A stretch of 64,000 nt of DNA from Whalleya microplaca (taxonomy: Eukaryota > Ascomycota > Sordariomycetes > Xylariales > Xylariaceae), in the NCBI GenBank assembly GCA_022497155.1, contig MU385738.1, positions 496,001-560,000 of the forward strand, given 5' to 3'. Each line of letters starts with the position of its first letter. Position 1 is the stretch's first letter. Under the pieces are notes generated by a model. That model had not been told where the DNA came from. It saw nothing but the letters and a program-made list of their open reading frames with translations, and ran no database searches. Below are positions 1,022-25,295 of the stretch, one piece after another. The position numbers and the translations under genes are program-made.

Positions 1022-3744
1022 ATGATGGCAAGCATGGGACCCGGCGGTTTCCATCCAGGCATGCAGCAGCATCCGGGTGTCCATCCCAACCATCCCATGG
1101 GTGCTCCCGGCATGGCTCACAACCCGAGCCAGCCTGGAGTCCAGCCCGGGATGCCACCTCAGATGGCTGGGCACATGGCCGTCTCTGGCCCCGGCGGACA
1201 GGCCAATCCCGCCGCCATGATGGGAGGTATGCCGCCGGGCGCTGGCGGGCCAAGCGCCCACGCGCTGCAGCACCTGAACCCCCAACAAATGTTTCAACAC
1301 CAACAGGCTCAGCAGCTTGCATGTAAGTATTGCTTCCTTCCCGCCCGCACAAAGCCTGTGACGCGTTGGCTGACCGAATTCGCCTTCGTCAGTTGCCCAA
1401 AATCCCCAGATGATGGCCCAGTTACAACAACAAAGGATGTTTCAACAGCGCCAACAGCAGGCGATGATCCAACAACAGATGTATGGCGGCGGGATGCCCA
1501 TGAACATGCAAGGAATGAACATGGCAGGTATGACGGCAGCCCAGTTCCAAGCGATGAGGAATAATCCAAACATGCAACGAGTCCTGCCCCAGCACCTTCA
1601 GCAGGCGCATCAAATGAGCCAACAGGGGCAGCACCAGAGCCCACAACACACTCAGGTAAGGGGGTCTAACCCAGTCTTGCGCTTGCAGAGCAGAGTGACT
1701 AACCATCGCGTCAACAGCAACTGCTAGCACAACAGCTAGCACTACAGCAGCAACACGCCCAACAGCAGGCGAATAACCACATGCATCAAGGCAACCAACC
1801 CGGCCATCCCCAAATGACTCCGCAGCAACTCCAGCTCCAGGCGGCCCAGCAGGCTCAGATGGCACAGTCGATGGCGCAACAAGTGCCCCAGGGCTCGCAG
1901 AACCAGGGTCCTCAGCCCCAATCGCAGCCCCAGGGCCAACCACAGCAGCAAGGGCCACAGCAACAACCGCCGCAGCAGCAAGGACAGCAACCGCCGAGTC
2001 AGCAACCAGGCCAGCAACCGCAGCCTAACTCCCAAGGTCCTCAGCGAGCCCCGACTCCTGCCGGTAGCCAGCCAAATCAGCCTCAAAGTCAAGGACCAAA
2101 CCCCGCGCAGACCAGCCAACCACAACAGCCACAGGCTCAAGGGCAGCCCCAGAATAATCAGCAAAACCAAGCTCAACATCAACAGCCCAATCCACAATTG
2201 TTGCAGGCAGCTCACCACCAGCAACAATTAGCAAATAACCTCCAGCAGATGCAGCAACAGCAACAGCAGAAGAACGATGGCATGAAGGGCCATTGCTTGT
2301 TGAAGCTGCTCCAGTTTGGTGAACATCTAAGCGGCTATATCCCTGTGAGTATTGGCGCTATTCCTGCTGGTGCGAGAAAACTGCTAACTGGACGCGTTCA
2401 ACAGAACCCGAGGGTAAAAGACGACATAACGTATTGGAACTCATTTGTTGCCCAGTTCTTCTCGCCGAGAGGCGTGTTCCGGCTTTCTCTCTTCTGCACT
2501 AGCACCGACCCCTCGACCGAGGAACATACCGACAAACAATACGAGATAACGCGGCCCGCCCTGCCGCGATACTTCCACACTCACTATCAAAGCGGCATAA
2601 AGCGAATCAATCTAACATTCGAGAAGGGTACTTCTGACAAGCCGTTGCCAAACGGTTGCCATTTTATTGAGAATCCAAAGACTAGCTTAACCTATTGGTT
2701 TGACAGCTCACACGTACGTTCGCAACATTTTGTGTCACGGACCCTCCAAACTATTTTATAATTCTGACATTGCACATTTAGGTTGTTGCAACAGGAACGC
2801 TTCGAGCCCAATTCGACAGCGAACAAAAGTTAGAGTTGCTTGAGTTCATTACAGCTGGCCACGAAGAGTTTCATTCAAGAAAGATGGTAATAGAGGCGGC
2901 ATTGCCGGCTCACAGCTGGGTCAAAGAATGGATGAAAGTTAATGGCCAGGATTCGAGGTTGTCCCCAGAGATGAGCAAAAAGGGAAAGCCGAAACTGTTG
3001 AAGTCTCCGCCAAACCCACCTCCCGATATTGATCTACCCCAATCTGCCGTCAAACAGAACATGGGTATCACTGAGGCCGTTTTCCAGTTTCTCGAGGTGA
3101 GCCTCGCCGTTACCCGCAATGAGCCTCATACTGACACAGCCCTTCAGATTGTTGAGGTTATGGGACAGATGTCGGTGAGTGGTCATGTCCGAGGAGATTA
3201 ACATATCAAAATCTCCTCCCACCCTGCCGTTAACGTGGTTGCTGACTACTTAATCTAGCCATTGTTCCAATTTCACCATGAGCACCCCGATCTCTCCCCG
3301 TACAGTGCGCTAGACCAATATGTCAATTCGCATATCACCAATGTTTCTCAACAACCCGTCATGAATGGCCAACCACAGGCTAACGGACCAACGAACCCCC
3401 GCACGCCGAGCTTCAGTCAATTTCCCATGGGTGCTTCACCGGCTGCACAACATCTTCAGCTCCCTAATTCACCGCATATGGGCAGTCCCGCCCAGGGTCA
3501 TATGCAAGCTCCTGGCATGCAGATGCAGCCAAGTCAGCAAGGAACGAGCTCCAGTGGACCCAGTGCCAACACCAGCCCGGCGAGCAACAAGAGAAGAAGA
3601 CCGTCAACCGTTAAGACCGAGGAAGAGGGTGGGGCACCAGCACCTGCGAATCTTGGTGGTGCTCAGGTCAATGGTGTAGGCATGACTAATAAGAAACAGA
3701 CAACACCTAGGCTACAAAAGCGCATAAAGGGCAATCCTGCATAG
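1022..3744 (+). CDS. ptaB: LIM-domain-binding (Ldb1/PtaB/Mfg1-type) transcriptional adaptor
   Basis: Nuclear adaptor that in Aspergillus works with the LisH protein SomA (yeast Mfg1 with Flo8) to control adhesion, development and conidiation. Seven exons are inferred: 1022-1322, 1393-1655, 1718-2344, 2405-2713, 2782-3096, 3148-3174 and 3259-3744, about 775 residues with all phases consistent. Residues 1-370 are Met/Gly/Pro- then Gln-rich, like a low-complexity activation region. About 376-640 is the conserved Ldb core, recognisable from LKLLQFGEHL, ITYWNSFVAQFFSP, GVFRLSLF and LFQFHHEHPDLSPY. The tail is Ser/Pro-rich with a basic KRRRPS patch. Intron 3 (60 nt) has donor GTGAGT, branch CTAAC and acceptor CAACAG but is also open and a multiple of three, so retention would add 20 residues inside the conserved core. 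Exon 6 is only 27 nt. The start is the first of two tandem ATG codons. Confidence 0.85.
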
Positions 3745-20594: not shown

Positions 20595-21348
20595 TTAGGC
20601 GGCCTTGCCAAAGGTGTTCTCGCCGGAGTAGGTGATGTAGAGAAATCTAGACAAAAGCCAAACGAGTTAGTCTCTAATCATGGACGGTGAGAGGTGTGAT
20701 GGGAGAGGCCAGGCCAGGGCAGGCCAGGCAGAGAGACATACCCATCCTCGTCCTTGTGCTCTTCGTAGATGCTGCTCATGAGAGCGGCGGTCGGGGGCAG
20801 GACCTCATCGACGAAGATGAAGATAGCCTTCTCGGGCGACAGCTTAATCCGCTTCCGGATGACGTAGACAAACTGGCCGACGGTGAGGTCTGCGGGAACG
20901 AGGTACTTCTTCTTGTCGATGGTCGCAATGTCGGACTTCTCAACCTTCTCACAGATGACCTGTGGGGTGTTTGTCAGCTTTGTGTATTTGCGAACAAAGG
21001 CGGAAAGCGGTGAAGGGACTTGGAACTGATGGATGGGAGGATGGATGGATGGATGGATGGATGGATGAACAGGTGCATGGATGGATAGAAACGACAATCA
21101 GGATGATTATGATGGCCGTGATGGTGATGACGATGACGATGATTGGCAATAGGCAGATACAACAGCTGACGGAGAGAGAGAGAGGTCGGGAGATGGAGAA
21201 TAAGGGCGGGAGAAGCAAATGATAAGAGACAAATGGTGATGATGGTGGTGATACATACCGGAATGCGGTCGGCGTACTTTTGGCGGATGCGTTCGGCCTC
21301 GGCCTTGCGCTTCTCGAAGGGGTGCTCGTCCTTAAACTTGGATCGCAT
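20595..21348 (-). CDS. atg8: Autophagy ubiquitin-like protein Atg8
   Basis: Ubiquitin-like protein conjugated to phosphatidylethanolamine on the phagophore, needed for membrane expansion and cargo receptor binding. Three exons: 21348-21259, 20959-20742 and 20646-20595, 119 residues, the normal size. It begins [20 protein letters not shown] and has [15 protein letters not shown] (LIR-docking strand), [13 protein letters not shown] and [13 protein letters not shown]. Gly116 is followed by KAA, so Atg4 cleavage is needed to expose the glycine. Intron 1 is unusually long (299 nt) and contains a GATG/GGAT tandem repeat. The gene has a long leader with several GGTACCT-type motifs upstream. Fully intact. 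Confidence 0.97.
21025..21066 (+). repeat. GGAT/GATG tandem repeat in atg8 intron 1
   Basis: Near-perfect tetranucleotide array inside the first atg8 intron, with further GATG-rich DNA to about 21140. It accounts for much of the intron's extra length and is likely length-polymorphic. Confidence 0.85.
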
Positions 21349-23224: not shown

Positions 23225-25295
23225 TCAACGAATAACATCACCCTCCTTATCGATCCCCTCGCCCATCTCCAGAATATCACTGCCGGCGAGCACCCCACTC
23301 CCGAGCGTCGTGGCCTTGCGCCCCGCCATCCACACCTCGTGGAACTTGACGCTCTCGTCGCTGCTGGCGACCACAATACACCCCTCCTCGGCGGTGCGGC
23401 TGCGCAGGCGCTCCTTGGTGCGGTACGTGTCGCTGGGCCCGCCGGGGTACGCGATGGCGTACAGGGCGCGGTGCTCGCCCTCCCACGGCACCGCGCACAC
23501 CTGGCGGCAGTCGGGCCAGCTGAACACGGCGATGCGGAACGGGTGGTCCGGCTGCGCGTACCCGAACGTCGCCACGATCTCCCGCCGCGTCGTGCTCCAG
23601 ATCAGCGACGTCACCTGCGCCGCCACCGAGATCGTCGCCAGCGCCGCCCCGGACGCCCCGTGGTAGAAGTGGATGCACTTGTCGTTCGACCCGCCGCCCG
23701 TCGCGATCAGCCCCGCCCGCCACGGGCAGAACGCGATCGCCTTGACGGCCGCCGCGTGCCGCCACCGGTGCCTCTCCGAGCCCGTGGTGAAGTGGTGCAC
23801 CGGGATCGGGTGCGAGGTGAAGGGGTCGCAGGCCTCGGCGAGAGATAGGGATGAGGCGGCGTATTCTGACTTTGCTTTTTTCCTTGATGAGCTGAGCTTA
23901 TTCACGCTGTTACCAGAGCTCACCGTGGGCGGAACTAGACTGGTCGCTGTAGGCCCCGCGGAGATGATCTTCTCGGTGTCGAAGAGACAGCACATGTTGT
24001 CGTTGCTTCCCGTGGCGAACTGGGCGCCGTTGGGAGACCAGGCGAGCCCGCATATCTGCTGCGTGTGGACCCTGATGCGAGCGGTCAGGGTCATGGCGCC
24101 GGGCCAGTTTCCCCGAGCCACTTCCTAGGACTCGGGCCACTCGACGGAGTAGTAGTAGACATCTCCCATCTCGTCGCCTACCAGGAGATCTTCCGTCTTC
24201 ACTGGCACGCCGGGATTGCGAGGGTTCACCGACGGGCGCGTGGTGACGGTGGGGCGCCAGGAGAGACATGTTACGGGCGCGGGCTGCTGGGCTTCGAAGC
24301 GGGGAAGCAGGCTGTCGAAGAGGGACATCAGAGAGAGCGCGCCGTTGGACCGACCAAATGCCAGGATGCATTTGCCGCCTTCGTCGGACGAGAACGCGAC
24401 CGACGTCAACCACGACCCGTCCTTGATTCCGGCGTTCAGGAGAGTGACGCCTGAGGATTCCGACCAGCCGTACAGGAGATTGCCCAGACCGACGGCCAGA
24501 GTGTTACGCGACCGGGAGTACGCCATGATAGAGCAGTAGAAGTCATCTCGAAGACCGGGGGCGTCCAAAACTCTGCTCAGATGTCAGCAGCTGGAGATCC
24601 CTGCTCGGAGACCTGCTCACTTGAATGGAGCATTGGGGATGGTTCGTTCTTCTTTCTGCGCCTCTGTAACTTTTGTCAGTCTCGCAAACAGGTTAGCCCG
24701 ACCTGAGACGCAGCATACCCGGCGTATGTTGATCATTGCTCCACTCGCTTCCCGTCCACGTGGTCTTCGCATGTCGCAACGACGGCCTACCCTTGGGCTT
24801 GCAGCGGGGGAACGTGGAGTAGCCGTCGAAGTCCAGAATCCGCTGCACCCGATCGATCTTCAAGGCGAGGGCGAGCCTTCCCTCGTGTTTCTCCTGCTCC
24901 TCTTCGGACTTCGTCCGCGTATTTGAAAAGGAAGTAGTGTAGAGACGGGCATTAGTCCCAGAGCTGACCAATCGACCACGACCACCGTCAATGGCTAGTC
25001 CTCCGGGGGCCAGACCGCCCACGGCCCATACGGTGCCGTTGCTGACTTGTCTTTCCAGACCCGGCAGGCCGATGACCGTGCCTAAGCGGCGTTCCGTGCC
25101 ATCGGACCGGGAAAGTTGCCGTGCTGCCATAGGCACAGACCGCTTCGGGGTGAAGCAGAAGGCGTCGGGAGCGGCATCTTCGGTGCGGTGTAACCGTTCA
25201 GACGGTGAGAGCTCGTGGGGCTGCTTGTTGGTGCGGAAACGGTCGGACCCGGGCACGCGAAAAGGTAGAAAGCGGTCGGGGGACGTGATAGACAT
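23225..25295 (-). CDS. ama1: Meiotic APC/C activator, Cdc20/Fizzy-family WD40 protein (AMA1-like), with in-frame TAG
   Basis: Co-activator that brings substrates to the anaphase-promoting complex during meiosis and ascospore formation. Exons 25295-24719, 24663-24621 and 24572-23225 give 655 codons. Residues 7-13 are a C-box (DRFLPFR) and the protein ends in Ile-Arg, both APC/C-binding signatures; WD40 repeats lie between (PGLRDDFYCS, VHTQQICGLAWSPNG, AAVKAIAFCPW). Codon 356 (minus strand 24127-24125) is TAG in the context PES-stop-EVARGNW, where relatives have Trp. The frame continues intact for 299 more codons, so this is one event in an otherwise unmutated gene. The TAG lies in a hairpin loop, suggesting A-to-I editing to UGG (Trp). 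Translated unedited, the product would stop before most of the WD40 propeller. Confidence 0.85.
24112..24136 (-). promoter_or_regulatory. Hairpin presenting the in-frame TAG of ama1
   Basis: On the mRNA strand CCCGAG and CTCGGG form a perfect 6-bp stem around a 13-nt loop TCCTAGGAAGTGG that contains the TAG. The target A (position 24126) has U at -1 and G at +1. Hairpin loop plus UAG context is the reported preference of perithecium-specific A-to-I editing in Fusarium and Neurospora. The structure is seen directly; the function is inferred. Confidence 0.6.

Follow-up and report, generated by a model that had tools for sequence, protein, structure and literature searches.

The window, a stretch of 64,000 nucleotides of Whalleya microplaca DNA, carries on its minus strand an AMA1-like gene for a meiosis-specific APC/C activator, which extends over 23225..25295 from its start codon to its final stop. 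In our two-intron model, exon 1 (24719..25295) contains near the N-terminus the sequence DRFLPFR, which we take to be a C-box-like motif. Intron 1 (24664..24718, 55 nt) runs from GTATGC to ACAG and includes both CTAAC and CTGAC, exon 2 (24621..24663) is followed by intron 2 (24573..24620, 48 nt; GTGAGC to GCAG, with CTGAC), and exon 3 (23225..24572) encodes the WD40 propeller and a C-terminal Ile-Arg tail. When the two introns (24718-24664 and 24620-24573) are removed, the gene reads as 655 codons plus the final stop, with exactly one internal stop, a TAG at codon 356 (24125..24127, minus strand), and editing is predicted for the A of this TAG, at 24126. A first-pass annotation of this DNA had described a frame open on both sides of a single TAG in an otherwise pristine gene ending in Ile-Arg. 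The 655-codon model agrees on each point: the translation contains no second lesion, and the Ile-Arg tail is present in exon 3.

Matches to the CDC20/Fizzy WD40 profile flank the stop on either side (E values of 6e-16 and 6.4e-42); the pieces were searched separately, and each scores under the Pfam whole-protein cut-off. Exon 1, searched alone against protein family profiles, gave no family match. Three close homologues (P0067, P0117, and P0123) carry the name AMA1 in their source records, and the gene is distinct from the other fizzy-like genes of the genome, at C11 and C24, which match its downstream half at 46% and 39%. Judged by its sequence, the gene is of the AMA1 type, that is, an APC/C activator of the meiosis-specific Cdc20/Fizzy class. 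By chance alone, an intact gene would not be expected to carry an in-frame stop at a conserved column; of the short WD40 matches listed for this genome, 150 were scored out of 358 candidates, and not one contains a stop. The neighbors of AMA1 in the window include, on the plus strand, an open reading frame with a profile match to protein prenyltransferase alpha repeats (PF01239; 26335-27624) and, on the minus strand, one that presumably encodes a relative of the autophagy protein Atg8 (20678-21097).

The best homologue of the window translation is the protein deposited for W. microplaca (Xylariales, Sordariomycetes) itself, P0001, which differs from it in two respects. It has two more residues (VT) at intron 1, as with an acceptor 6 nt upstream, and it is missing V338 through codon 356, corresponding to a 57-nt in-frame GT...TAG segment (24125..24181, minus strand) that was cut out of the deposited model as an "intron." This segment starts with GTAGGC and ends with TAG, and its length is divisible by three. 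It does not show the features of a spliceosomal intron: no CTRAY branch site occurs within 24181-24125, unlike in both accepted introns, and its boundaries are not conserved. Eleven GT-AG segments, all in frame and 36 to 120 nt long, would each remove the stop if spliced out, which gives gene predictors several options, and the chosen segment differs by species. The protein sequence of the 18 codons preceding the TAG is conserved, with 12 to 16 of 18 residues identical in the seven relatives that have them, and homologues with Trp at position 356 encode the residues of the 57-nt segment as exon. We consider its removal most likely an annotation artefact, although it is possibly a weak alternative intron. 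An automatic model that inserts an intron and so avoids the stop is a feature of premature-stop-correction sites, and P0001 displays it. In the portions of the articles available, PUK1 and 69 genes like it are reported to have been annotated in the same way (PMC4817773), and Fusarium CHE1 provides a parallel in which a conserved TAG likewise defeated automatic gene prediction (PMC11169179), although CHE1 is a zinc-finger gene edited in hyphae.

The first-pass annotation had proposed an alignment of orthologues at the TAG. Among the best 120 of 1016 proteins from our first homologue search, Trp proved to be the majority state at column 356 (72 proteins), with Tyr in 1 and the column absent from the remaining 47 gene models, P0001 included. 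The 47 absences represent 14 different deletion spans, every one of them covering column 356, which argues against one real intron. All of them fall together with the window gene into one clade of 64 rows, where they account for 47 of the 63 homologues; the other 16 rows have Trp and, by their source names, include several Xylaria and Nemania models, Rosellinia necatrix, and Seiridium cardinale. The names identify this clade as Xylariomycetidae, comprising Xylariales and a few Amphisphaeriales (Seiridium, Pseudomassariella). On a FastTree phylogeny built without bootstrap, the states at column 356 require at least 8 changes, the Tyr being one.

Two more searches (best 120 of 287 and best 120 of 914) brought the combined set to 236 proteins, which are part of the existing homologues, being the best 120 per search. 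Column 356 holds Trp in 152 of these, is absent from 51, and holds another residue in 33, the last group belonging by name mostly outside Sordariomycetes and Leotiomycetes, with a few inside. The four absences added by the larger set are in Truncatella angustata (Amphisphaeriales), Tolypocladium capitatum, Sarocladium strictum, and Fusarium sp. NRRL 66182. Stops in homologues are deduced here from gene models, and the window TAG is the one AMA1 stop read directly from DNA. Individual substitutes at the column include Tyr in P0077 (Apodospora peruviana), Ser in P0205 (Ilyonectria robusta), and Arg in P0217 (Golovinomyces); each of these residues is one base change away from TAG or TGG.

P0002, which comes from a separate genome, lacks the same 19 residues as P0001, and this speaks against an assembly error. 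The window protein is identical to P0002 at 132 of 138 residues upstream of the TAG and 273 of 299 downstream, and to P0086 at 105 of 156 and 183 of 287, respectively. Identity was lower downstream than upstream in 10 of 10 comparisons, all of them made with the stop-bearing window gene. The part downstream of the TAG contains a variable linker, to which we tentatively attribute the difference.

The TAG had also been placed in a hairpin (24112..24136), and the arms CCCGAG (24136-24131) and CTCGGG (24117-24112) are found on the minus strand with exactly the letters and positions claimed, separated by a 13-nt loop, TCCTAGGAAGTGG (24130-24118), that holds the TAG. The six-base-pair stem stands, whereas the loop size does not: in the minimum-energy fold, four more base pairs form beyond the six, so that the extended stem closes on an AGGA tetraloop with A24126 as its first base. 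In the folded mRNA, the TAG has the U at -1 and the looped A that characterize fungal premature-stop-correction (PUK1-like) editing sites. A24126 lies in a hairpin loop of the minimum-energy fold at all eight segment lengths tried, with a probability of at least 0.99 up to 61 nt (0.998 at 61 nt), 0.58 at 81 nt, 0.50 at 101 nt, 0.77 at 151 nt, and 0.93 at 201 nt. The stability of the hairpin is unexceptional (z score of -0.42; 61 of 200 shuffled sequences fold equally well). As background, 1972 TAGs of the window were folded: 26.6% place their A in a hairpin loop, and 6.5% of 1971 have a perfect stem at least 6 bp long. Given this ordinary stability and this background, the hairpin taken alone is weak evidence, and we rejected it as a sole argument for editing. 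With respect to base context, the GGAA downstream of the A fits the preferences at +1 to +4 in the available part of PMC4817773, and positions -2 and -3 are both C, where U and G, respectively, are mildly favoured. A search of the whole window for RNA families gave no match.

Other signs of editing appear elsewhere in the genome. A RID-like cytosine methyltransferase gene (G000:C19:507058-507570; L016) has a single in-frame TAG within the conserved motif NLST*GVPQPRKR, and its A, at position 3013 of the locus (1-based), is in a predicted hairpin loop (P = 1.00). The available part of PMC4817773 lists a rid orthologue among edited F. graminearum genes, a match at the level of the gene. Similarly, a PUK1-like kinase gene (G000:C7:970786-971079, minus strand; L023) contains TAG TGG in CD*WSVGVILYE, the A again being in a predicted hairpin loop (P = 0.97), and UAGUGG also occurs in the kinase domain of NCU03242, the PUK1 orthologue of Neurospora (PMC4817773, in part). 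RID-like and PUK1-like are labels by resemblance, given without a tree or homologue search. These two were counted from ten stop-bearing stretches inspected, which cover part of the kinase matches with stops. The other eight stretches (L017-L022, L024, and L025) were not counted as premature-stop genes, their stops being at exon edges, in intron-like stretches, or, as in L022, ambiguous. In this last, a kinase gene (G000:C41:215300-215671), a TAG stands in the open stretch DLA*VAFHHML and may be either an intron end or a premature stop. SPO22, of a published editing target family (PMC9499528, in part), was likewise left out of the count; its TAG ends a 48-nt GTAAGT...CTGAC...TAG stretch that looks like an ordinary intron, an observation that weighs against editing in this genome.

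We also considered the editing machinery. The genome has four DUF726 genes, and one alone (G000:C5:314218-315312; L008) has MV at the diagnostic site of Ame1, where the others (L005, L006, and L007) have NQ, RN, and LD. According to the available part of PMC11087585, MV is needed for Ame1-Tad3 binding and the ancestral residues are KN. Counted by hand, the Asp at +58 and the His at +98 from the Ser of L008 correspond to the published numbering, and MV lies closer to the Ser by one residue than in that numbering. With MV at this site, L008 is a candidate Ame1 of the editing type. Matches to deaminase domains, among which Tad2 and Tad3 may lie, number 11 in the genome.

AMA1 is itself a known target in Fusarium, where Hao et al. 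(2019) reportedly described premature-stop-correction editing of FgAMA1. FgAMA1 (FGRRES_10728) is a published edited gene of F. graminearum in the portions available of three articles (PMC4817773, PMC11156358, PMC9499528), two of which describe the change of an in-frame coding-region UAG to UGG by editing in perithecia (PMC4817773, PMC11156358). The Whalleya gene is thus the same gene with the same type of event, an in-frame UAG, for which editing is predicted here. The first-pass annotation, in citing the Fusarium AMA1 orthologue as a known case, is right for the gene; by gene models, the agreement does not extend to the codon. Trp at column 356 is kept in 12 of the 13 listed Fusarium models, including F. 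graminearum and F. verticillioides, and 7 of the 13 (P0207-P0213, again with these two species) lack stretches that overlap at columns 254-261. The only conserved Trp within this overlap is Trp 261, and the deletion ends exactly there in four of the seven; the remaining six models retain Trp 261. In F. graminearum (P0211), 254-282 are missing and Trp is present at 356. Since these Fusarium models keep 356 and drop 254-261, AMA1 would be gated there through a different codon, and the F. graminearum stop appears, from the gene models, to be at Trp 261. One model, P0203 (Fusarium sp. NRRL 66182), differs from the other 12 in lacking columns 354-369; it keeps Trp 261.

A turnover of stops between Trp codons of one gene has a precedent in PUK1 (NCU03242 in Neurospora): both stops occur in F. 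graminearum, the first alone in N. crassa, and the second alone in F. verticillioides (PMC4817773, PMC5381528, both in part). The two PUK1 codons are adjacent, whereas the candidate codons of AMA1 are scattered over the propeller. FgBUD14 resembles the Whalleya gene in another way, in that its edited stop is inside an alternatively spliced intron and the AMA1 TAG is likewise a candidate for both editing site and intron; for FgBUD14, stage-specific splicing is reported (PMC11156358, in part), whereas the Whalleya intron is a feature of a gene model only.

We then examined where deletions end across AMA1 as a whole, counting internal deletions of at least 7 residues with their 3' end in a chosen core of the 236-homologue alignment. 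Columns 424-458 and 566-594 (570 excepted) were set aside as gap-rich, and the columns were chosen after the data were seen. Of 92 deletions counted, 51 end on conserved Trp columns against 3.1 expected from composition, 34 of them at column 356 and 17 at other Trp columns; we give these figures as description, since rows from one clade are not independent observations. With column 356 left out, 17 of 58 deletion ends are on Trp against about 1.9 expected, whereas ends on Gln, Lys, and Glu, whose codons can also end in AG, number 12 against about 10.9 expected. Counted as distinct deletion ends, 6 of 33 are Trp columns (P = 0.00036, in a test that treats positions as exchangeable). Model support is thin at three of the Trp columns, with one model at 477 and two each at 532 and 621.

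Column 570 is a gap in 39 of the 236 models, many of them through different deletions (P0004, P0014, P0018, P0025-P0039, P0042-P0046, P0048, P0049, P0051, P0052, P0087, and 11 others), and Trp 570 is where deletions of several types in Xylariales models overlap. This pattern suggests a second premature-stop codon in the AMA1 genes of relatives, although true introns or indels may also occur at the column; codon 570 of the window gene is TGG. Six residues ending at Trp 570 (columns 565-570) are missing from three Leotiomycete models of Lachnellula (P0093, P0096, and P0132), a gap too short for an intron, which makes column 570 less certain. We tentatively propose, at somewhat less than even odds and from gene models rather than DNA, that AMA1 has come under stop-codon control repeatedly. 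Independent TGG-to-TAG changes would have occurred at up to six conserved propeller Trp codons in different Sordariomycetes, and Xylaria and Nemania would have reverted to Trp; it would look as though an editing-dependent, sexual-only activator were favoured by selection whichever Trp was hit. In this equally tentative scheme, column 261 would serve part of Fusarium, 356 the Xylariomycetidae and a few Hypocreales, and 570 many Xylariales and some Hypocreales.

Several other origins of the window TAG deserve consideration. A TGG-to-TAG change might have created a 3' splice site here and with it a 57-nt intron (24181-24125), real or alternative; splicing would then remove the stop, and the protein would simply lack 19 residues. 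The GTAGGC...TAG form of the segment, its length in multiples of three, and its use by the deposited model agree with this idea, as do the deletion ends, since 34 of the 51 deletions over column 356 in the 236 homologues end exactly at 356 and the 57-nt span recurs exactly in 18 of the 47 deletions of the first set. We nevertheless regard such an intron as improbable: unlike both accepted introns, it has no CTRAY branch site, the deletion boundaries vary among relatives (14 spans in 47), and the residues of the segment stay conserved and are exon in homologues with Trp. That AMA1 is a recent pseudogene or a loss allele of the sequenced isolate seems less probable still. The TGG-to-TAG transition is a common mutation, CpA to TpA is the pattern of repeat-induced point mutation, and identity is somewhat lower downstream of the stop than upstream, but 655 codons carry no other lesion, 273 of 299 downstream residues are identical to P0002, and the same column is missing from 47 of the 63 homologues of the clade.

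Translational readthrough of the UAG, rather than editing, would also yield a full protein and would likewise keep the downstream frame under selection. It is hard to credit, because close relatives carry Trp as the other state of this column, precisely what editing to UGG restores, and because TAGs are also present in the RID-like and PUK1-like genes, whose families are edited in Fusarium and, for PUK1, in Neurospora (PMC4817773, in part). An error of sequencing or assembly that hides a genomic TGG would involve a single base, but the column is also avoided by the independent genome of P0002 and by 45 further models of the clade, and we give this explanation almost no weight. The reading we prefer, to which we assign a probability of about 0.85, is that the AMA1 gene is functional and that the TAG at 24127-24125 is a premature stop which A-to-I editing would correct. 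This prediction, made in the first-pass annotation, is well supported by the homologue alignments, the clade distribution, the fold, the TAGs of the RID-like and PUK1-like genes, and the DUF726 gene with MV.

Under A-to-I correction, the genomic TAG would be a genuine premature stop in functional AMA1. In vegetative cells, the AMA1 message would yield residues 1-355 as a truncated product, or no protein at all. In the sexual phase, A24126 in the hairpin loop would be deaminated by Tad2-Tad3 acting with its cofactor Ame1, and ribosomes would read the resulting UIG as UGG (Trp), producing the full-length meiotic APC/C activator. We infer that A24126 is edited in W. microplaca and that editing would confine AMA1 activity to fruiting bodies, with full-length protein probably made in sexual reproduction only. 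The Tad2-Tad3-Ame1 mechanism is already known; what the sequence would add is another order and another codon of a known target gene. Neither the codon-356 site nor Trp-codon turnover in AMA1 was found in the literature searched, which leaves most subscription journals outside its coverage; RNA editing in Daldinia was not found there either, and RNA editing in Xylariales is scarcely represented in it.

As AMA1 exemplifies, deposited gene models can conceal stops of the kind predicted here. If AMA1 has truly gained stops at more than one of its Trp codons, this would offer a comparative test of whether restorative editing is adaptive, for example by restricting harmful vegetative AMA1 activity, or the product of a neutral ratchet. 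For the Xylariales, the predicted site at codon 356 would extend to this order the stop-codon-gated control of a meiotic APC/C activator.
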